Positions 4,802-61,651 of a stretch of 64,000 nt of DNA are shown here, in pieces. How positions within the stretch are numbered: position 1 is the first letter of the stretch; every line of letters begins with the position of its first letter. The notes below the pieces were generated by a model. It was given only the letters and a program-made list of their open reading frames with translations, made no database searches and was not told the DNA's origin. The stretch comes from Rhodospirillaceae bacterium MC! (GTDB lineage: Bacteria > Pseudomonadota > Alphaproteobacteria > MC1). A program made the position numbers and the translations under genes. Location: positions 65,579 through 129,578 of the forward strand of contig NQOV01000001.1 of the NCBI GenBank assembly GCA_002632265.1, given 5' to 3'.

Positions 4802-5995
4802 ATGACTCATATGACTGATAAAAAGAAATTATTAATATTATCATTAACAATATTAATAGAAATCCATGGATTCGCAATCTTTATGCCCATGCTCCCTTAT
4901 GTGGCTAAGCATTTTCATGCCAACGGTTTCCAAGTAACATCATTGATGACCGTATACAGTCTTGCTCAATTCATATGTTCGCCCTTATTGGGGAAAGTAT
5001 CCGATAAATTGGGGCGTAGACCTGTGATTTTATTTTCATTGTTGTTAAATGTCATTTGTTATATCCTATTAGGTCTTGCGAGCAATTTGGCGGAAATCTT
5101 CATATTGCGTACAATTGCAGGGGCAGGAGCAGGCGTGATAGCCACATCATTCGCCTATGGAAGTGATATCTCCAATGAAGAGAATCGCCCCAAAGTAATG
5201 GGCATGCTTGGGGCCTCTTTAGGGCTGGGCTTTGTCTTCGGTCCGATGATTGGTGGGATGTTAGGATCTCATAGCTTGCAACTTCCCATGTTTGTTTCGG
5301 CTAGCTTATCCTTTATAGCCTTTCTTATGGCGTTCTTTTTCCTAAAGGAATCATACACAAAATACGCTCGCTTGCGTTTGATAGCTCTTGACCAACCTAA
5401 GCCATCATTGTCATACGTTATATTTTCCACAGGATTAATTAAGTTTCTTGTTATCATCGTCCTACTTGCTGGATCATTTGCCACATTCGAATCCATATAT
5501 ATAGTATATGCCAGCGATAAACTAGAATATACAAGTAAGGATATCGGTATTATATTTATGTGCTTAGGTATCACATCAGTATTAGTCCAAGGCGGTATTG
5601 TGAGAATGCTAGTTAAACGCATGGAAAAGAAAAAAATCTTGATCTTAGGATCTCTAATAATGATAATCTCATTTTCCCTTATCCCATTTATGAACTCAAT
5701 AACAGGGAATATTACCGCAGTGTGTATTCTGGCTTTAGGGTGGGGAATGGTTAGCCCCTTACTTAATAGTATCGGCTCATTATACTCAACAAAAAATACC
5801 CACGGCGTAACCCTAGGAGTAGTACGCTCTGCTAGTATCATCGCCCGCATTGTCGGTAGTTTACTTGCAGGTATCCTATATGAAAACATATCAATCCAAT
5901 CGCCATTTTATTTTACTATTGGTATGTTAATACTTGGTATCATCCTACTTCTCATACAGAATATCAAGGATCATGAAAAAGATAGTGAAAAATGA
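4802..5995 (+). CDS. MFS transporter, DHA1/TetA-like drug or metabolite exporter
   Basis: Inner-membrane 12-helix major facilitator, 397 residues. The first half carries the MFS motif A block GKVSDKLGRRPVIL between helices 2 and 3 and a motif C-like GLGFVFGPMIGGMLG in helix 5, the antiporter signature of proton-coupled exporters. It resembles TetA-type proteins but the substrate cannot be read from sequence. An in-frame ATG three codons downstream is an alternative start. The stop codon abuts a family B palindrome remnant. Confidence 0.85.
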   Translation: MTHMTDKKKLLILSLTILIEIHGFAIFMPMLPYVAKHFHANGFQVTSLMTVYSLAQFICSPLLGKVSDKLGRRPVILFSLLLNVICYILLGLASNLAEIFILRTIAGAGAGVIATSFAYGSDISNEENRPKVMGMLGASLGLGFVFGPMIGGMLGSHSLQLPMFVSASLSFIAFLMAFFFLKESYTKYARLRLIALDQPKPSLSYVIFSTGLIKFLVIIVLLAGSFATFESIYIVYASDKLEYTSKDIGIIFMCLGITSVLVQGGIVRMLVKRMEKKKILILGSLIMIISFSLIPFMNSITGNITAVCILALGWGMVSPLLNSIGSLYSTKNTHGVTLGVVRSASIIARIVGSLLAGILYENISIQSPFYFTIGMLILGIILLLIQNIKDHEKDSEK

Positions 5996-6060
5996 GCTAA
6001 TACGCACCTTTAATTAGGGCTTATGTGGGTGTGAGTATATGTTTCCCCGTATGTGATCGA
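5993..6060. repeat. Degenerate family B palindromic element, copy 3
   Basis: Left arm and centre resemble the 1224-1457 copies (gctaatacgcacctttaatt, then agggcttatgt...gtgagta), but the right arm has decayed to tttccccg. It begins at the stop codon of the MFS gene, the same placement as copy 1 after trmFO. Confidence 0.65.
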
Positions 6061-10882: not shown

Positions 10883-10953
10883 GGATTTGAAAAAGTAAGG
10901 ATGTGAATAAGCACTCATGTCTTAAAGACACTGACTGAACACTTTTTTATCAT
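10883..10953. repeat. Family A palindromic element (short form, degenerate)
   Basis: Starts right after the metK stop: ggatttgaaaaagtaaggatgtgaataagcactcatg..., then ...actgactgaacactttttta. It holds two overlapping left ends, and the central block is missing. Recognised by comparison with the full copies near 54.9 and 57.8 kb. Confidence 0.65.
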
Positions 10954-11878: not shown

Positions 11879-11898
11879 TATCAACATAAACATTCTAT

Positions 11899-11973
11899 TG
11901 GGGTGTAGCCAAGTGGTAAGGCATCGGTTTTTGATATCGTGTACCGCAGGTTCGAATCCCGCCACCCCAGCCA
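11899..11973 (+). tRNA. tRNA-Gln (anticodon UUG), copy 1
   Basis: 75 nt including encoded CCA. The acceptor stem TGGGGTG pairs with CACCCCA, with U1-A72 as in bacterial tRNA-Gln. The D-arm is GCCAAGTGGTAAGGC, the anticodon loop contains TTTTTGA with TTG, and the T-arm is GCAGGTTCGAATCCCGC (GCGGG-type stem with the standard TTCGAAT loop). Confidence 0.97.
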
Positions 11974-12037
11974 ATTTTATGTTTATAGCCATATGATTAT
12001 CTAGAATTAGCGATAATTTTATAATCATATATATTAA

Positions 12038-12112
12038 TGGGGTGTAGCCAAGTGGTAAGGCATCGGTTTTTGATATCGTGTACCGCAGGTTCGAATCCCG
12101 CCACCCCAGCCA
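12038..12112 (+). tRNA. tRNA-Gln (anticodon UUG), copy 2
   Basis: Identical over all 75 nt to copy 1, 64 bp downstream and in the same transcript. A strong hairpin terminator follows immediately. It probably arose by a local duplication that raises dosage. Confidence 0.97.
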
Positions 12113-14180: not shown

Positions 14181-14194
14181 TACTAATTATTAAA

Positions 14195-14247
14195 GGATGT
14201 GAAAAAAGCACTCATGTTAGCGTTCTTAAGAATTTTTCCACTCTTTT
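14195..14247. repeat. Family A palindromic element (short form) in a 5' untranslated leader
   Basis: ggatgtgaaaaaagcactca... paired with ...ttaagaatttttccactc. The centre is missing. Unlike most copies it lies upstream of a gene, between its promoter and start codon. Confidence 0.65.
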
Positions 14248-15591: not shown

Positions 15592-18012
15592 ATGAAAAAA
15601 ACATTACTCTCTATAGCCATTGGGGGGACACTAGCGGTTTCTCCTGTGGGATTTATTCATAATAGTTTTGCTAATTCTACTAGAGAAGCAAAGCTTATTA
15701 ATAGTATCAATAGTAAAATTAACGAGTTAATAAAGTTAAGCAAAACGGCTCAAACAAAAGGCTATGACATAAAAAGGGAACAAGCTACCATTTTTATGGC
15801 TAGGCAATTTGCAAACTTTGCCAAATACGATTCAGCACATATAAAAGAAAATGCAAAAATTTTTGGCTATTCTTATATATATAAAAAGAGAAATCCTAAA
15901 AGACTCGCTCGAGAGCTACCAACTTATGAGCGAACAGAAATTTTAAAAATGCTTACAACTTCCATTTCTAACATCAATGATGTTATCGCAGGGCGTTCGG
16001 TAAGAAAGCCTGTGAATATGGTAGATTGGAAAAATGTCCGCATGAAAAATGAAGAGTTTTACAATCCCAACGGCAAACCAGTATTTTTATACGATTATTT
16101 CTCAAAAGCCCATGATGCAGAAGATAAACATCCAAATGTTTATAACGATTATGTAGGAGATCTTGCTAATTCTTGGTTTTTATCTTTAAATTTACTTAAA
16201 GAGAATGGCAAATTAGATCTTGAGCATGCTGATAATCTAATTAATTTTGAGAAGAAATTTCCCAATAAAAAAGATCATATTGGATACGTAAATGGCTGGA
16301 AAGGTTTAGGAGCTTTACCCCAATGGATGAGAGATAAATACGGCTTGAAAAATCTAACACATGGCGGAGCACAGTGGACAGCTTATGATATCGATAATCC
16401 GCACATTAGGGACGCATGGAGAAAAACTTTTTCTCTTATCATTCCCAAATTAAAGGGCAAGAATTTTGCTAAATTAAGTTATGTTATCGCCAACGAACCC
16501 CAGTGGACATCCGACGATAAATCATGGTTCAAAGTTAAAAATGGCATTAGTGTTGATACATTAACCAAATTTAGAACATGGCTAAAAAACAAACATCATG
16601 GCAGTATTAAAGATCTTAATAGTTTATGGAAAACATCCTATAAAAGCTTTGATGATATCACAATTAAAATTCCTTTTACTGTAGCCAAAATCCGTGGATC
16701 AGCTAAATTTTATGATTGGTCCCGTTTTAATATGTATCGTGTGGATAATTGGATGAAGTTTTTACATGATAACATCAAAAAACATGACTCAAGAGCAAAC
16801 ACAAGCATAAAAATTCTACCTGAATTAACTGTTGGCGAGTTAGGTGGAAGAGATAATGGTATTAATATTGAAGATCTAACAAATCTAACCGAAATTTCTG
16901 GCCACGATTCCGCTATTCGCACTAAAAATTTTGATAGTAAACATGAAGAATGGCAAAAGAATTATGCTTATTATTGGCGTGAAGTTGCGATGACAAATGA
17001 TCTTTTACGCTCGTTCGCTCCTAATAAAGTTATATTTAATTCGGAATCTCACTTTATTTCCACATCACACTTCCGTAATGCAAAAATGAAGCCTACATAT
17101 GTAAGATCTGCCTATTGGCTATCGGCTATTTTAGGCACAAGTGCAAATACTACATGGTTTTGGGCAAGATACGGCACAGGAGAAATCGAACCCAGAGTAA
17201 TCCATCATCAAGCAGCAAGCGACGCTTATCAAGGTTCGGTAGTGCAAATGCCAAGAGTAGCAAATGAGATCACTCAAACCATGTTCGATTTAAACGCTCA
17301 TTCGCAAGATATTGTAAAATTTCATAAGCAAGAAAAACCCATAAGAGTATTCTATTCGGAAACATCTAATATTAATTATCAAGATCAAATTAATCAAGTC
17401 TTTAATATTTATAAGGGTTTATACTTTGATGGCTCGCCTATAGGTTTTGCTACACAAAACATTCTTAATAAGCATATTGGGAAATTTAGTGAAGTTATTG
17501 TTTATAATACGCCGTCGGTAACCGATGATGAATTTAAAGCTTTACAAAATTATCTTAATCATGGCGGTACAGTCATCACAGATAACGCAAGCTTAAAAGT
17601 CAACGAATATAAACAAGCTCGCAAGGTAAACTTAAAGCAGGCTAGGGGTAAGCTGATTATTGTTAAACATAATACTAAAGAAATCCCAACCATTCGCAAT
17701 CTTGCCTTTAAGATCCTACCAAAAAGCAAAAAGCCAGCCATTACCATTAAGGAAACCAATGCCACTAAAACCAAAGGATGTATATGGCGAGTTGTCAATG
17801 GATCGGATAGACACAACAAGATCGTTACTGTTATTAACGTAGGTAAAACTACCGCACATCTTACTATGATAGATCCCAATAATAGCCCTAAAGCTACCAA
17901 TATTGTTGATATGTTCACAGGTCAAAAACGCACTCAACATATAAATCTAGAACCTGAAAAAGTGTTATTCTTAAATGTAGGAACTAAAAAGCCTTGGGCA
18001 AAGATTAAGTAA
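15592..18012 (+). CDS. Exported GH42-like (clan GH-A) glycoside hydrolase
   Basis: 806 residues with a signal peptide (MKKTLLSIAIGGTLAVSPVGF..., cleavage predicted near SFA). The central barrel shows GH42-like features: VIANEPQW with an N-E-P acid/base motif, then FRTWLKNKHHGSIKDLNSLW and YDWSRFNMYRVDNWMKFLHD, and a candidate nucleophile in VIFNSESHF. After the barrel, VIVYNTPSVTDDEFKALQNY and GGTVITDN resemble the glutamine-amidotransferase-like trimerisation domain of GH42 beta-galactosidases. The first 150 residues match nothing I know. An exported galactan- or algal-type glycan enzyme is plausible, but the substrate is unknown. A family A palindrome begins at the stop. Confidence 0.75.
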   Translation: MKKTLLSIAIGGTLAVSPVGFIHNSFANSTREAKLINSINSKINELIKLSKTAQTKGYDIKREQATIFMARQFANFAKYDSAHIKENAKIFGYSYIYKKRNPKRLARELPTYERTEILKMLTTSISNINDVIAGRSVRKPVNMVDWKNVRMKNEEFYNPNGKPVFLYDYFSKAHDAEDKHPNVYNDYVGDLANSWFLSLNLLKENGKLDLEHADNLINFEKKFPNKKDHIGYVNGWKGLGALPQWMRDKYGLKNLTHGGAQWTAYDIDNPHIRDAWRKTFSLIIPKLKGKNFAKLSYVIANEPQWTSDDKSWFKVKNGISVDTLTKFRTWLKNKHHGSIKDLNSLWKTSYKSFDDITIKIPFTVAKIRGSAKFYDWSRFNMYRVDNWMKFLHDNIKKHDSRANTSIKILPELTVGELGGRDNGINIEDLTNLTEISGHDSAIRTKNFDSKHEEWQKNYAYYWREVAMTNDLLRSFAPNKVIFNSESHFISTSHFRNAKMKPTYVRSAYWLSAILGTSANTTWFWARYGTGEIEPRVIHHQAASDAYQGSVVQMPRVANEITQTMFDLNAHSQDIVKFHKQEKPIRVFYSETSNINYQDQINQVFNIYKGLYFDGSPIGFATQNILNKHIGKFSEVIVYNTPSVTDDEFKALQNYLNHGGTVITDNASLKVNEYKQARKVNLKQARGKLIIVKHNTKEIPTIRNLAFKILPKSKKPAITIKETNATKTKGCIWRVVNGSDRHNKIVTVINVGKTTAHLTMIDPNNSPKATNIVDMFTGQKRTQHINLEPEKVLFLNVGTKKPWAKIK

Positions 18013-18055
18013 GGAGCGTGAAAAAGCACTCATTTAGAGCTTTTTCTCTCACCTT
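18013..18055. repeat. Family A palindromic element (short form)
   Basis: ggagcgtgaaaaagcactca folded back on agagctttttctctcacctt, directly after the GH42-like stop codon. The central block is absent. Confidence 0.65.
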
Positions 18056-23063: not shown

Positions 23064-23103
23064 TTTACTTCTCCGTTGAATTAGTTTAATTGTAATTGTT
23101 ATC

Positions 23104-23132
23104 ATTATACAGGAATAATCATTAAAAGTCAA
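23104..23132 (-). promoter_or_regulatory. Near-consensus promoter of the overlapping hypothetical pair
   Basis: On the minus strand, TTGACT and TATAAT are separated by 17 bp, with a short leader of about 35 nt before the GGAG-preceded ATG. It is among the strongest promoter matches in the window. Confidence 0.75.
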
Positions 23133-23134
23133 TC

Positions 23135-23175
23135 AAAAAGCCTTGATAAGATACGAGATCTAATCAAGGCTTTTA
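23135..23175. terminator. Hairpin aaaagccttgat/atcaaggctttt, copy 1 of a repeated terminator
   Basis: Perfect 12-bp stem with flanking A and T tracts, able to act in both directions. Copies 2 and 3 follow each Sel1 gene. This copy lies upstream of the first Sel1 gene, consistent with duplication of a gene-plus-terminator unit. Confidence 0.7.
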
Positions 23176-23187
23176 AGTTTAATTTGC

Positions 23188-23216
23188 TTGATTTAGTATT
23201 GTAGGATTGATATAAT
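23188..23216 (+). promoter_or_regulatory. Promoter of the first Sel1 gene
   Basis: TTGATT and TATAAT with 17 bp between. The same sequence recurs upstream of the second Sel1 gene. Confidence 0.65.
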
Positions 23217-23253
23217 ATCAGACATTAATAATAATTCGACCCATAGGATACAC

Positions 23254-24081
23254 ATGAAAAAATTTTATATAATATTAGGTGTGATACTTGTAAGTACATT
23301 TTTCTTGCTAACTTTGGTTTTTTTTACACCTGATTTAAGCATGGTAGTTTCATGTTTGAAAGGGCCAAAAACAATTATGTGTATGAGAAAAGTTGTCTTA
23401 AAGAATACTGCAAACTTTCAATATGATTTAGGGGGGATATATTATGATGAATACAACTATAAAAAAGCAATATATAGCTATACTAAATCAGCTAAACAAG
23501 GGAATACTGACGCTCAATATATGTTAGGATATATGTGTGAAACTGGGCTGGGAGTATTAAAAAGTGATAAACAAGCAATATATTGGTATACTAAATCAGC
23601 AAACCAAGGAAATGCCGCCGCTCAAAATAATCTAGGATTGATGTATAATAATGGGCAAGGAGTATTAAAAAGCTATAAGCAAGCTATATATTGGTATACT
23701 AAATCAGCCAAACAACTAGGAGATTCCGCCGCTTACGCTCAAAATAATCTAGGATTGATGTATGAATTTGGGCACGGAGTATTAAAAAGCTATAAACAAG
23801 CTCTATATTGGTATACTAAATCAGCAAACCAAGGAAATGCTAAAGGTGAATATAATTTAGGACTTCTGTATGTAAACGGATATGGGGTAGAACAAAATAA
23901 TATAAAAGCATATGCTTGGTGGTTAATTTCTGCTTATAATGGCGATGAAAGTGCAAGTAAAAAGCTTGAAATAGCAAAAGAAAAGATGTCAGATGATGAA
24001 ATACATCAAGCCAAAAAATTATCCTATGAATTATCCCGTAAAATAGTCCATGAGTTATTGAAGACGAGTAACAAACCGTAA
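23254..24081 (+). CDS. Sel1-repeat protein, membrane-anchored or exported
   Basis: 275 residues. Residues 1-28 form a hydrophobic N-terminal segment (KKFYIILGVILVSTFFLLTLVFF) that could be a signal anchor. From about residue 50 there are five Sel1/TPR-like repeats of about 36-40 residues with the pattern AQYNLG-x-MY-x-xGxGVLKSYKQAxYWYTKSA. Such repeats form a helical solenoid for protein-protein contacts; Sel1 proteins act in signalling or host interaction in various bacteria. No catalytic domain. It is a tandem paralog of the next gene, and the flanking DNA is duplicated too. Confidence 0.88.
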   Translation: MKKFYIILGVILVSTFFLLTLVFFTPDLSMVVSCLKGPKTIMCMRKVVLKNTANFQYDLGGIYYDEYNYKKAIYSYTKSAKQGNTDAQYMLGYMCETGLGVLKSDKQAIYWYTKSANQGNAAAQNNLGLMYNNGQGVLKSYKQAIYWYTKSAKQLGDSAAYAQNNLGLMYEFGHGVLKSYKQALYWYTKSANQGNAKGEYNLGLLYVNGYGVEQNNIKAYAWWLISAYNGDESASKKLEIAKEKMSDDEIHQAKKLSYELSRKIVHELLKTSNKP

Positions 24082-24087
24082 CAAAAG

Positions 24088-24127
24088 AAAAAGCCTTGAT
24101 AAGATACGAGATCTAATCAAGGCTTTT
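24088..24127. terminator. Repeated terminator hairpin, copy 2
   Basis: Same aagccttgataagatacgag stem-loop as copy 1, directly after the first Sel1 gene; the downstream promoter region is also repeated. Confidence 0.75.
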
Positions 24128-24140
24128 AAGTTTAATTTGC

Positions 24141-24169
24141 TTGATTTAGTATTGTATTATTGATATAAT
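24141..24169 (+). promoter_or_regulatory. Promoter of the second Sel1 gene (duplicate of the first)
   Basis: TTGATT-17-TATAAT in a segment nearly identical to 23175-23250. Confidence 0.65.
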
Positions 24170-24208
24170 ATCAGACATTAATAATAATTTGACCTATAGG
24201 ATAAACAC

Positions 24209-24910
24209 ATGAAAAAATTTTATATTATATTAAGTGTGATACTTTTAAGTATACTCTTCTTACCAACTTTGGCTTTTTCTAAATCTGATCAGCAAACCGC
24301 CGTAGATTCATGCTTGAAACAAGCTAAACCAAATATATGTATGAAGAAATTAGCTTTAGGTAATAATGCAATAGCTCAAAAAGAGTTAGGTATTATGTAT
24401 GCAAAAGGGCAGGGAGTAAAGGTAAATTATAAACAAGCTTTGTTGTTGTTCTCTAAATCAGCTAAGCAAGGTAATGCTCATGCTCAATGTGATTTAGGCT
24501 TGATGTATTATAACGGATATGGAGTAAAGAAAAATTATAAACAGGCTCTATTGTGGTTCATTAAGTCAGCTAAGCAAGGAAACTCTGATGCTCAATTTAT
24601 GTTAGGGGTTGCGTATGAACGTGGGGATGGAATATTAAAAAATTACAAACAAGCTGTATATTGGTATACTCAATCAGCAAAGCAAGGATATGCCGACGCT
24701 CAACTTAATTTAGGGGGTATGTATGTAAATGGGCAAGGAGTAGAACAAGATAATATAAAAGGATATGCATGGCTGTCAATTTCTGCTTATAATGACAACA
24801 AACTTGCAAAGGAAAATATTAAAATAATAGAAAAACGCATGTCAAGTAACGAAATAAACAAAGCCCAAGCATTAGCCCAAGAGTTAATGAAGACGATTAA
24901 AAAGCCATAG
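24209..24910 (+). CDS. Sel1-repeat protein, exported (tandem paralog)
   Basis: 233 residues with a better signal peptide than its neighbour (FYIILSVILLSILFLPTLAFS), then a cysteine pair (CLKQAKPNICMKK) also present upstream in part. Four Sel1 repeats follow, for example AQCDLGLMYYNGYGVKKNYKQ. Both genes share the N-terminus, repeat consensus and C-terminal helix, so they arose by tandem duplication and then diverged in repeat number. Predicted to work outside the cytosol as an adaptor; partners unknown. Confidence 0.9.
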   Translation: MKKFYIILSVILLSILFLPTLAFSKSDQQTAVDSCLKQAKPNICMKKLALGNNAIAQKELGIMYAKGQGVKVNYKQALLLFSKSAKQGNAHAQCDLGLMYYNGYGVKKNYKQALLWFIKSAKQGNSDAQFMLGVAYERGDGILKNYKQAVYWYTQSAKQGYADAQLNLGGMYVNGQGVEQDNIKGYAWLSISAYNDNKLAKENIKIIEKRMSSNEINKAQALAQELMKTIKKP

Positions 24911-24916
24911 TAAAAG

Positions 24917-24957
24917 AAAAAGCCTTGATTAAGATACGAGATCTGATCAAGGCTTTT
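24917..24957. terminator. Repeated terminator hairpin, copy 3 (between converging sel1 and rplS)
   Basis: Stem agccttgat / atcaaggct with A and T tracts. It lies between the second Sel1 gene and the end of rplS and probably serves both. Confidence 0.75.
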
Positions 24958-25004
24958 GAGTTTAATTTTTGTTTTTTATGAATGAGTTAAATTACAAGTA
25001 AATA

Positions 25005-26183: not shown

Positions 26184-26290
26184 TGTCTGCATTCCTTTCT
26201 TAATACCTTAATATTATCATAAATAGCTTTTTTTGTCTAAAGAATTTTATAAGGGTTGTAATAAACAGCTAAATTTTAGCACAATCCAAA

Positions 26291-26394
26291 GGGTGGGAAA
26301 AGTGCTTAGCCAGTGTTCTTAAGGCATGCGTACATGTACTATTGTTTACCTTAGCATGACTTAAGGACGCTGGATGAGTGCTTTTTCACACCCT
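26291..26394. repeat. Family A palindromic element in inverted orientation, variant centre
   Basis: Read on the minus strand it begins gtgtgaaaaagcactcat and runs through gcgtccttaag, then a centre unlike that of the 54.9-58.1 kb copies, then ccttaagaacactggctaag and cttttcccaccc. It lies between the divergent mutS and trmD starts, so here it cannot be a simple 3'-end element. Confidence 0.75.
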
Positions 26395-26472
26395 TTTTGA
26401 TAAATGTGTTGATAGAATCGTTATTTCTTAGTATAATCATCATATCACAACAAACTAAAATGGTGAAGAAAA

Positions 26473-43083: not shown

Positions 43084-44505
43084 ATGAAGCACTTAGAAAC
43101 AAGTATTATAAACACTATCAACAGAATAGCCGACTTTGAAATACGAGGTCGAGTAACTGCTGTTAAGGGATTAATGATCGAAGTTGGCGGAATGCAAGGT
43201 TCACTTTCCATTGGGGAACAGTGTTACATTCATGCAACCCATGAAAAAATATTGTGCGAAGCGGTATCATTTAAAACTGGGCATGTATTAGTAATGCCTT
43301 ATGGTAGTGTTGAGGGTATTTCTTTAGGTAATGCTGTTGAGGTTATATCTTCATCAAGATACATATACCCTACTCCCGAATGGCGTGGCAGAGTGATCAA
43401 CGCCTTAGGCGAACCTGTGGATGATTTAGGGCCATTACCTGAAGGTAGTAAGGGTTATGCAATTCGTGGTAATCCGCCATCGGCACATAGTAGAAAAAGA
43501 GTTGGAGGCAAGATCGACACAGGAGTACGAGCTATCAATGCTTTTTTAAGTTGTTGTGATGGACAACGTATGGGGATCTTTGCGGGTTCTGGTGTTGGTA
43601 AATCTTCGGTGCTTTCCACTATTACACGTGGTACGGATGTGGATATCGCTGTGGTAGGCTTAATTGGTGAGCGTGGGCGTGAGGCTCGTGAGTTTATTGA
43701 AGATGATCTTGGCGAAGAGGGTTTGGCTCGTAGTGTGATTGTGGTTTCCACATCGGACGAACCGCCCCTAATGAGACGTCAGGCCGCATATATGACAATG
43801 GCGGTATCAGAATACTTTCGAGATGAAGGTCATAGTGTTCTTGCCATGATGGATTCGGTTACACGTTTTGCTATGGCACAACGTGAGATTAGTTTATCAA
43901 TTGGCGAACCGCCTGCCTCTAAAGGTTATACTCCGTCCGTATTTGCGGAACTTCCTAGATTACTAGAACGAGCAGGCCCAGGCCCTGAAAATGCGGGAAA
44001 TATCACAGGACTATTTACCGTATTAGTGGACGGCGATGACACGAATGAGCCGATTGCCGATGCAGTACGTGGTATTCTTGATGGACATATCGTGTTAGAT
44101 CGTGCCATTGCCGAGCGTGGGCGATATCCTGCGGTTAATATTTTAAAGAGTGTATCTCGTATGATGCCAGCTTGTAATAATCAAGAACAAAATGAGCTTA
44201 TTAGTAAAGCTCGTGGAATCATTTCCTCTTATGAAGATATGGCAGAATTGATTCGCTTAGGTGCTTACAAAAATGGTACGGATCACAAGGTGGATGAGGC
44301 CATATATTTCTATCCTAAGATTGAAGATTTCTTACGCCAGTTAAAAGGCGAAACTACGGATATTAATACAAGTTATCATTCTTTAGCTAAAATATTAGGT
44401 TTCCCTTTTGAAGATGTGGATTACGCCCAATTGCTCAATGATGAGCTAATGGCACAACAAGAGGCCATGAGAAATGGCGGACAGTTACAACAATTCGAAG
44501 AGTAG
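43084..44505 (+). CDS. fliI: Flagellum-specific ATPase FliI
   Basis: ATPase of the flagellar type III export apparatus at the cytoplasmic base. 473 residues with Walker A GIFAGSGVGKSSVLS, VVGLIGERGREAREFIED, Walker B-like VLAMMDSVTRFAMAQRE and PPASKGYTPSVFAELPRLLERAG, all diagnostic of the FliI/SctN group rather than F1 beta. The stop is followed at once by a family A palindrome, then fliJ after 111 bp. Confidence 0.97.
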   Translation: MKHLETSIINTINRIADFEIRGRVTAVKGLMIEVGGMQGSLSIGEQCYIHATHEKILCEAVSFKTGHVLVMPYGSVEGISLGNAVEVISSSRYIYPTPEWRGRVINALGEPVDDLGPLPEGSKGYAIRGNPPSAHSRKRVGGKIDTGVRAINAFLSCCDGQRMGIFAGSGVGKSSVLSTITRGTDVDIAVVGLIGERGREAREFIEDDLGEEGLARSVIVVSTSDEPPLMRRQAAYMTMAVSEYFRDEGHSVLAMMDSVTRFAMAQREISLSIGEPPASKGYTPSVFAELPRLLERAGPGPENAGNITGLFTVLVDGDDTNEPIADAVRGILDGHIVLDRAIAERGRYPAVNILKSVSRMMPACNNQEQNELISKARGIISSYEDMAELIRLGAYKNGTDHKVDEAIYFYPKIEDFLRQLKGETTDINTSYHSLAKILGFPFEDVDYAQLLNDELMAQQEAMRNGGQLQQFEE

Positions 44506-44590
44506 GAATGTGAAAAAGAACTCATGTTAGCTAGCTAGTTAGCTCGAGCATACCTTAAGAACGCAACTCAAGTACTTTTTCCCACTTCTT
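44506..44590. repeat. Family A palindromic element between fliI and fliJ
   Basis: gaatgtgaaaaagaactcat at the left and cttaagaacgcaactcaagt, actttttcccac at the right; the centre is replaced by gttagctagctagttagctc. It begins directly at the fliI stop and splits what is usually a tightly linked operon. Confidence 0.75.
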
Positions 44591-54846: not shown

Positions 54847-54853
54847 TCAAAAA

Positions 54854-54958
54854 TGGCTGTGAAAAAGCACTCATTCAGCGTCCTTAAGTCATACTTATGT
54901 ATGGGGTATACACCCCGCATACCTTAAGAACACGCACTCAAGTACTTTTTCACACCCC
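54854..54958. repeat. Family A palindromic element, full-length, after mnmE
   Basis: Full form. Left arm gctgtgaaaaagcactcatt, cagcgtccttaag; centre acttatgtatggggtataca; right arm taccttaagaacacgcactc, aagtactttttcacacccc. Outer arms are imperfect reverse complements over about 35 bp, and the centre folds on GGGG/CCCC. Confidence 0.85.
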
Positions 54959-55072
54959 TTAATTGTATAATCAAAAAAAATACTAAATAAAAACTTCTAT
55001 TCTTGTTATAAATGTGATATAATGCAAATATATTATTAAAATTATCATAGGTATATAAAGGATACAATCATC

Positions 55073-57443: not shown

Positions 57444-57797
57444 ATGAAAAAATTCGTACTATATGCAAGATCATCAAATAAAGATATTAAAGAGGCAAAA
57501 TTAGATTTTGCTTATCAATTGGAACACCTAAAAAAGTATGCTCTTAAATTTGAAAAAGGCCATATTTTAGGCGAGTTCATGGAAATCGCCCCCAACGATA
57601 CCTTAAACGGTAGACCAGAATTACAAAAAGCCATAGATATGGCGAATGCCAATAATGCTATTTTGATGGTTGACCACGTCCACGTTCTAGCCCTAATGAT
57701 GCGAGATCTTCTTAAGGTGCTTGATGATATTGACGATCGTTTTTATTGTTGCTATGATCTAGAAGAAGGCGACCCACCCTACGATAAAGGAGTGTGA
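57444..57797 (+). CDS. Serine-recombinase (resolvase) N-terminal-domain-like protein, probably non-catalytic
   Basis: 117 residues aligned with the resolvase catalytic fold: VLYARSSNKD matches Y-A-R-x-S with the Ser at position 11, and NGRPELQKAIDMANANNAILMVDHVHVLA matches the RP-x-L...D-R-L-x-R helix. Where active enzymes have D-R-L-x-R the sequence reads DHVHV, so both catalytic arginines are lost. There is no DNA-binding domain after it. It starts 2 bp after tatC, so it is in the tat operon. The last two codons and the stop are part of a family A palindrome. Function unknown; a structural or regulatory remnant is possible. Confidence 0.7.
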   Translation: MKKFVLYARSSNKDIKEAKLDFAYQLEHLKKYALKFEKGHILGEFMEIAPNDTLNGRPELQKAIDMANANNAILMVDHVHVLALMMRDLLKVLDDIDDRFYCCYDLEEGDPPYDKGV

Positions 57798-57894
57798 AAA
57801 AGCACTCATTCAGCGTCCTTAAGTCATACTTATGTATGGGTTATACACCCCGCATGCCTTAAGAACACTGACTAAGTACTTTTTCCCACTCCTT
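57789..57894. repeat. Family A palindromic element, tandem array unit 1
   Basis: Full form. Left arm ggagtgtgaaaaagcactca contains the stop codon of the resolvase-like gene; centre acttatgtatgggttataca; right arm ccttaagaacactgactaag then tactttttcccactcc. Confidence 0.9.
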
Positions 57895-57903
57895 TACTTT
57901 TGA

Positions 57904-58004
57904 GGTTTGAAAAAGTACTCATTCAGCGTCCTTAACCGAGGCTTATGTATGGGTTATACACCCCGCCTCGCTTAAGAACACTGACTAAGTACTTTTCCCA
58001 CTCC
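57904..58004. repeat. Family A palindromic element, tandem array unit 2
   Basis: About 100 bp, with tttgaaaaagtactcattca at the left and the inner arms changed to ccgaggc/gcctcg. That keeps pairing inside the palindrome although the sequence differs from unit 1: a compensatory change. Confidence 0.9.
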
Positions 58005-58014
58005 TTTACTTTTG

Positions 58015-58116
58015 AGGTTTGAAAAAGTACTCATTTAGCGTCCTTAACCGAGGCTTATGTATGGGGTTATACACCCCGCATGCCTTAAGAACGCTGACTA
58101 AGTACTTTTTCTCACT
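58015..58116. repeat. Family A palindromic element, tandem array unit 3
   Basis: Left half like unit 2 (ccgaggc), right half like unit 1 (gcatgcc), so it looks like a recombinant of the two. Its right end touches the pth stop codon on the minus strand. The units are joined by the same short spacer, cctttacttttgaggttt. Confidence 0.9.
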
Positions 58117-58683
58117 TTATTTTTTTCTTTCTAAGGATAACTTATTGGTGAACTTATTCGGAGTTGAGAGCATTAGATTAATGTTAGTAGAAATTAATGC
58201 TATGATTTTTTCGTTCTCTTCAAACTCTTGTTTGCTAAAGTTTGATAACACATAGGCAGATACCATATGTTTATCTCCAGGATGATCGATCCCATATCTA
58301 ATACGCCAGTAGTTTTTGCCGATTTTAGCGTCGATATCACGCAAGCCATTATGCCCGCCGTGTCCTCCGCCTTGTTTGATTTTTATTTGAGAGAATGGAA
58401 TATCAAGCTCGTCATGAATCACGATTATATCTTCGGGTTTTATCTTAAAAAAAGCACAGGCAGATTGTACAGAGTTACCGCTTAAATTCATATGTGTTTG
58501 CGGTTTTAGTAAGCCGACATCTTCGCCATTTATGGAAGTTTTTGCAAATAATCCATGAAATTTTTTAGCAAAGGCGGTCGCTCCATATTGATCCGCCATA
58601 TGATCGACAATCATAAAGCCAATATTATGCCTATTTTTCTGATATTTAGTTTCAGGATTTCCCAAACCAACAATTAATTTCAT
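58117..58683 (-). CDS. pth: Peptidyl-tRNA hydrolase
   Basis: Frees tRNA from stalled peptidyl-tRNA. 188 residues with LIVGLGNPETKYQKNRHNIGF at the start, FGLH-type catalytic block FHGLFAKTSI, LLKPQTHMNLSGNSV, VIHDELDIPF and KQGGGHGGHNGLRDI. It is not next to rplY here, contrary to the common order. Same strand as the SH3-domain gene 23 bp upstream. Confidence 0.96.
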   Translation of the reverse strand: MKLIVGLGNPETKYQKNRHNIGFMIVDHMADQYGATAFAKKFHGLFAKTSINGEDVGLLKPQTHMNLSGNSVQSACAFFKIKPEDIIVIHDELDIPFSQIKIKQGGGHGGHNGLRDIDAKIGKNYWRIRYGIDHPGDKHMVSAYVLSNFSKQEFEENEKIIALISTNINLMLSTPNKFTNKLSLERKK

Positions 58684-61599: not shown

Positions 61600-61651
61600 A
61601 AGCCTAACAAACCCCATGACTAATCTAATAATCATGGGGTTTGTTAGGCTT
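61600..61651 (-). terminator. Rho-independent terminator after flgL
   Basis: Perfect 20-bp arms (aagcctaacaaaccccatga and its complement) with a 12-base loop. On the minus strand a T-rich tail (tttgttttta) follows. Confidence 0.9.

Follow-up and report, generated by a model that had tools for sequence, protein, structure and literature searches.

Palindromic repeats of a Rhodospirillaceae genome contact stop codons on one side and follow replication

Palindromic repeats are common at gene ends, where the usual explanation is that they serve as terminators or arise incidentally from intergenic insertion. REPs, defined as palindromes of 20-40 bp with a GTAG or CGTC tag at the 5' foot, are published as lying close to the 3' ends of ORFs, and their GTAG termini often supply the TAG stop (PMC3733652); supply of stop codons by palindromic repeats is therefore not new per se. 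In SBW25 the tandem REP arrays on one side of the genome are oriented oppositely to those on the other (PMC3116915), and relatives of IS200/IS605 are described as targeting the lagging-strand template (PMC6006769). The targets of YPAL elements span or adjoin dyad symmetry (PMC2229807), group IIC introns insert beside terminator stem-loops (PMC7923331), and of 30 chromosomal integrons, 25 have the attC bottom strand on the leading-strand template (PMC5371416). Here we describe repeats of a Rhodospirillaceae bacterium which contact stop codons on one side only, are oriented with replication, form polar arrays, fold into a covarying hairpin and lie upstream of native terminators.

Repeat copies in the genome and in the window

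Families A and B are alignable over their full length and make up one palindromic superfamily, the unit of which is an imperfect hairpin of about 109 bp with a 7-8 nt bulge. Seed searches over the genome (an assembly of 2.05 Mb in 19 contigs, 95.5% complete) gave 58 matches for family A and 114 for family B. Copies were then re-called with nhmmer profiles in fetched stretches around the seed matches and in a few control stretches, an element-centred sample of about one-quarter to one-third of the genome. This re-search gave 206 copies in total, and 193 copies in 105 arrays at a cut-off of at least 20 bits (~540 kb examined). The arrays held one to six units, head-to-tail, and element density differed between contigs, C13, C15 and C16 being poor in elements. 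Two contig ends (C2:114-223 and C14:87-196) carry the same element with near-identical flanks, and are probably the two copies of a duplicated segment at which the assembly broke. Genes were called by an in-house script based on ORFs and codon usage; as it overlooks some genes, the test of stop contact was redone with open reading frames alone.

The window, i.e. the whole stretch of 64,000 nucleotides that was analysed (C19:65579-129578), holds the following copies and, around the three-unit array, the following genes:

1218-1326, + strand: family B, unit 1 (stop-proximal); its left arm gives the TGA stop (1226-1228) and the last codons, K-G-S, of trmFO
1331-1451, + strand: family B, unit 2 of the trmFO array, head-to-tail and weaker than unit 1
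5978-6048, + strand: partial family B copy; the stop of an MFS gene (5993-5995) lies within its left arm
10916-10949, + strand: weak partial family A copy (15.8 bits), 3' of metK
14190-14230, + strand: family A left-end fragment
18011-18055, + strand: family A copy, internally deleted, at the TAA stop (18010-18012) of a gene for an 806-aa protein
26288-26396, - strand: family A copy, reversed, between two divergent genes (trmD-like and mutS); the copy breaks both placement rules
44503-44590, + strand: family A copy beginning at the TAG stop (44503-44505) of fliI
54852-54960, + strand: family A copy, 6 nt past the TAA stop of mnmE; the MnmE C-terminus (...FCIGK) is kept
57444-57797, + strand: gene for a short resolvase-N-domain protein, the upstream host gene
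57787-57894, + strand: family A, unit 1 of a three-unit array; its left arm gives the TGA stop (57795-57797) of the resolvase-like gene
57900-58007, + strand: family A, unit 2 of the same array
58012-58120, + strand: family A, unit 3 of the same array; its right foot is at the stop (58117) of the convergent pth
58117-58683, - strand: pth, peptidyl-tRNA hydrolase, the convergent neighbour

A first-pass annotation of this DNA had placed the stops of the resolvase-like gene and of trmFO (11-1228, identity confirmed) inside the left arms of an A and a B element, respectively, and both placements were borne out. It had also put the stops of five further genes within a few bases of an element start, and the end of pth, on the other strand, at an element edge. 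The MFS gene does end (5995) inside the partial B copy, the fliI stop (44505) falls where its copy begins, the mnmE stop (54846) precedes its copy by 6 nt, and the end of pth falls in the right foot of the third unit of the array. An element was present after metK as well, in the form of the weak partial copy alone. The gene at 15592-18012, called GH42-like in that annotation, ends at the deleted A copy as claimed; its name found no support, the 806-aa protein having no match in Pfam or NCBIfam.

The reversed copy at 26288-26396 is among the most stable hairpins of the window. Other repeats were seen apart from the two families: a tandem duplicated region of 108-bp units (D1-D10 of the repeat scan) at 23100-25000, in and around two similar small-protein genes; a tandem pair of tRNA-like sequences at 11896-12112, 99% alike over 78 nt; and, outside families A and B, a near-perfect long hairpin with a stem of ~20 bp at 61601-61650, near a gene end.

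Stop codons, replication and array polarity

The left foot lay within 12 nt of a same-strand stop in 62 of 82 arrays (arrays of at least 60 bits, ORFs of at least 70 codons; the cut-offs of 12 nt and 60 bits were picked post hoc, with the data already seen). Control positions shifted by 60, 120, 200, 400 and 800 nt gave 0, 0, 2, 0 and 5 of about 80, respectively. Where both neighbours were called, 55 of 73 arrays were within 12 nt of a sense stop, whereas 2000 trials of uniform placement in the emptied intergenic region averaged 10.7 such arrays and never exceeded 18. The regular placement suspected in the first-pass annotation is thus closer to stops than random positions are. This contact is one-sided and belongs to the left foot. 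The right foot followed no such rule, and only 3 of the 24 right feet facing a convergent gene were within 12 nt of the stop of that gene. The left foot reads TA-A(0-4)-GGnnTG, and most often the TA of the stop is the TA of the foot; stop-foot gaps of -2 to +2 mainly track the number of A ahead of GG. In six arrays, including those of trmFO (K-G-S) and the resolvase-like gene (K-G-V), the stop is the element's own TGA (gap -10). TA was present at most left feet and at only part of the right feet, the latter judged by eye. Avoidance of TGA was considered as proof of a TA target and found uninformative, since TGA makes up merely 2% of stops in this genome.

Orientation of the arrays was uniform along contigs. 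In leave-one-out comparison with the other arrays of the contig region, 70 of 74 arrays agreed, as did 19 of the 20 arrays without a scored sense-stop contact; the exceptions to the rule were four arrays and two weak loci found later. Orientation was related to GC skew (p=4e-6), and the effect was independent of gene direction (t=4.7). A sense element was present at the stops of 57 of 252 leading-strand genes as compared to 4 of 129 lagging-strand genes (Fisher p=1e-7), a difference not fully independent of the orientation rule, because the leading strand was assigned per contig from the majority element orientation; the GC-skew test is independent of it. In contig C18 the orientation flips between 65 kb (-) and 127 kb (+), and this interval holds three parS sites (77.9-78.3 kb), parB (80.7 kb) and the GC-skew minimum (~70 kb), all within ~25-50 kb of the flip. 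Judged from two weaker loci on the minus strand, at ~89 and 102 kb, the flip itself lies to the right of parS.

The units of an array are not equivalent. The best-scoring unit was the stop-proximal one in 38 of 40 arrays, and scores fell along all 27 arrays with three or more units. Since profile scores could favour first units, the energy of the inner-core hairpin was taken as an independent measure, and it was -44.9, -35.5, -29.2 and -28.1 kcal/mol for ranks 1, 2, 3 and 4+, respectively, with unit 3 weaker than unit 2 (p=0.03). The nearest relative was a first unit at another locus for 26 of 35 first units as against 12 of 74 later units (p=5e-9). First units were nearest to a unit outside their own array in 29 of 35 cases (maximum upon label permutation, 26), and later units were closest to an array-mate in 46 of 74. 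Tandem slippage as the sole source of the arrays was rejected, since a first unit is more similar to the first units of other arrays, though later units do show local duplication. The polarity fits repeated insertion at one left junction, the main alternative being conservation of the first unit by selection.

We lean, with modest confidence, towards A and B being non-coding mobile palindromic repeats which insert strand-specifically at the stop codons of replication-co-directional genes and stack stop-proximally. A new copy would insert at the stop of a gene whose coding strand is the lagging-strand template, and its left foot would join the gene at the TA of TAA or TAG or immediately behind it. 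Where the foot reads A(0-4)-GG the stop would thereby be regenerated; otherwise the element's own TGA would replace it. As the target would survive at the left junction, later copies would land there and push older ones downstream, giving polar head-to-tail arrays. The process would be insertion and not selective retention, and its chemistry may resemble that of IS200/IS605 and REP, with a single strand inserted on the 3' side of a target in the lagging-strand template. If insertion is strand-specific, takes place 3' of a TA-containing target and keeps that target on the left, one mechanism would explain why contact is one-sided, why leading-strand genes are favoured, why the elements lie in sense and why units stack. 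The arrays and loci that break the orientation rule speak against this model, and a TA target alone does not account for the preference of stops over other TA in the same AT-rich gaps. A repeat aimed at the translation stop codon itself, with the reading frame or the terminating ribosome defining the target beyond the DNA sequence, and with the same stop-proximal, replication-strand-specific stacking, is a bolder reading that we consider distinctly doubtful.

Terminators and selective retention

Elements might alternatively land widely, with those hairpins that fall directly after a stop being kept to end or protect mRNA and the distal units being decaying local duplicates. We regard such selective retention as unlikely, although several features agree with it. 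The elements lie in sense at 3' ends, their strong hairpin shows double compensatory change on the complementary strand in 27 of 36 pairs, the first unit is the most intact, and the later units often have their closest relative in the same array. Moreover, family A could, judged from its sequence, terminate transcription, for A5...T5 flanks the inner stem, with the A-run in 37 and the T-run in 35 of 40 copies.

The larger family, B, has a T-run in only 6 of 79 copies. Of 294 element-free genes, 24 were followed by a terminator-like hairpin that began 9-56 nt past the stop; of 69 arrays, 9 had one beside them, 14-52 nt beyond the right edge. Elements lie between the stop codon and the native terminator. 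With native terminators still downstream and family B mostly without T-runs, selection for terminators explains little. Lagging-strand genes, equally in need of terminators, are almost without elements; orientation tracks replication even where no sense stop was scored; contact with the stop is far tighter than a terminator needs, an ordinary one starting 9-56 nt away; and decay along the arrays is graded and not a single step.

The first-pass annotation had made two suggestions, namely that insertion is aimed at 3' ends or at terminators, or that hairpins at 3' ends are under selection. Gene 3' ends stood as the target in a narrower form, limited to the stop codon itself and to replication-co-directional genes. 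Insertion into existing terminators was rejected, since ordinary ones start well past the stop and persist downstream of the arrays, and selection for 3'-end hairpins as terminators is disfavoured by the lack of T-runs in family B and by the near absence of elements behind lagging-strand genes.

Folding strand, candidate enzymes and known systems

The inverted repeats of the outer stem and feet covary per locus (0.81 versus 0.53 when shuffled) and the bases past the foot do not; a host-derived outer stem was rejected, as complementarity ends at the foot. The left A-run is matched by the right T-run (rho 0.60). The strand complementary to the gene folds better in both families (A, -58.5 versus -44.4 kcal/mol; B, -49.5 versus -44.3 kcal/mol), because positions with conserved non-canonical pairs read A-C on the gene-sense strand but G-U on its complement, with a strand bias of 207 versus 27 in A and 183 versus 37 in B. 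Rare non-canonical states had no clear strand bias in the same table. The wobble excess thus belongs to a limited set of conserved positions and is no proof of ongoing selection on the complementary strand, and a general excess of strand-specific wobble pairs is only partly supported. These conserved wobbles count against the insertion model that we prefer, since they make the gene-complementary strand fold best and a process of the IS200/IS605 type would be expected on the other strand.

The better-folding complementary strand would be accounted for if the repeats were attC-like sites, the folded bottom strand being the substrate of a recombinase and its place on the leading-strand template keeping the sites stable, as in large chromosomal integrons. 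The anatomy is the same, an imperfect hairpin after the stop with a covarying stem and a better-folding bottom strand, and the strand placement agrees with that of the integrons cited above. We nevertheless hold this to be very unlikely. There is no integron integrase in the assembly; the sole Phage_integrase match is XerC-like and scored 116.6 bits with TIGR02249 as against a cut-off of 265. The host genes are housekeeping genes and not cassettes, and the core boxes RYYYAAC ... GTTRRRY were not visible on inspection of the A and B consensus. The XerC-like match, C11:92661-93110, is the only tyrosine recombinase match of the whole assembly, a separate XerD match being absent.

The search for mobility enzymes covered four families, namely Y1, reverse transcriptase, DDE_3 and Phage_integrase. 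In the 95.5% complete assembly there was no match to the REP-associated Y1 tyrosine transposase (PF01797), for which control genomes were positive, to reverse transcriptase (PF00078) or to the IS630-type DDE_3 transposase (PF13358), which also tells against the insertion model. Rfam gave nothing above the gathering score, and no bacterial intron, for positions 57700-58200 of the window. No copies of the elements were found in 57 other alphaproteobacteria by DNA search or in 384 by covariance model, nor was there a match in the viral contigs and plasmids searched. A contig search with MnmE as query gave only two distant relatives.

Still less probable is a chromosome-polarity signal, by which the repeats would mark replichore direction for segregation or repair and the site after the stop would be merely harmless. 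The replication polarity is very strong and flips near parS and parB, but the contact with stops within a few nt and its one-sidedness are left unexplained, the right foot seldom uses the stops of lagging-strand genes (3 lagging versus 55 leading), and density is uneven between contigs. Least credible of all is insertion at the RNA level. RelE is described as cleaving mRNA inside the ribosome and nowhere else (PMC5224514); a RelE-like cut in the A site of a terminating ribosome would open the mRNA within its stop codon, element RNA would be joined to the cut mRNA, and the product would be copied to DNA and then recombine with the lagging-strand template. Such a route would explain at once why targeting is frame-aware, why the join follows UA and why leading-strand genes are favoured, but the assembly yielded no reverse transcriptase and the A-run, being paired with the right T-run, is not an untemplated tail.

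Strict one-sided stop contact, restriction to replication-co-directional genes and an age gradient in arrays allow these explanations to be separated within one genome. If strain comparison confirms it, the pattern would mean that strand-specific insertion recurs at a landmark of translation, no enzyme for it being known, and the genome would serve as a clean natural system in which to ask how gene 3' ends are chosen by small non-autonomous repeats. We found no earlier report, in the open-licence literature, of one-sided stop contact together with near-complete replication polarity and polar arrays, and the combination appears to be new.

Among the known systems, group IIC introns differ in that here there is no reverse transcriptase and no intron-sized RNA, and the target is the stop codon and not the terminator. 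The attC sites of chromosomal integrons share the hairpin straight after the stop, the conservation of structure above sequence, and the best-folding complementary strand with its place on the leading-strand template; unlike them, the present repeats have no integron integrase, cassettes or visible core boxes and are dispersed genome-wide behind housekeeping genes. The bacterial MITEs YPAL, ERIC, RUP and Correia are alike in size class (100-170 bp), imperfect hairpin, intergenic location and non-coding nature, several of them with TA termini, but the repeats described here show one-sided contact with stop codons and not terminators, have an orientation fixed by replication and come with no DDE_3 transposase. 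REP/RAYT systems (REPINs, BIMEs) are likewise palindromic, intergenic and often clustered. In contrast to these, the present unit is 109 bp and not 20-40 bp long, its foot is TA-A(0-4)-GG and not GTAG or CGTC, no Y1/RAYT gene was found in the assembly, and its arrays are polar and head-to-tail where REP units alternate, with nearly all arrays, and not a few, following replication.
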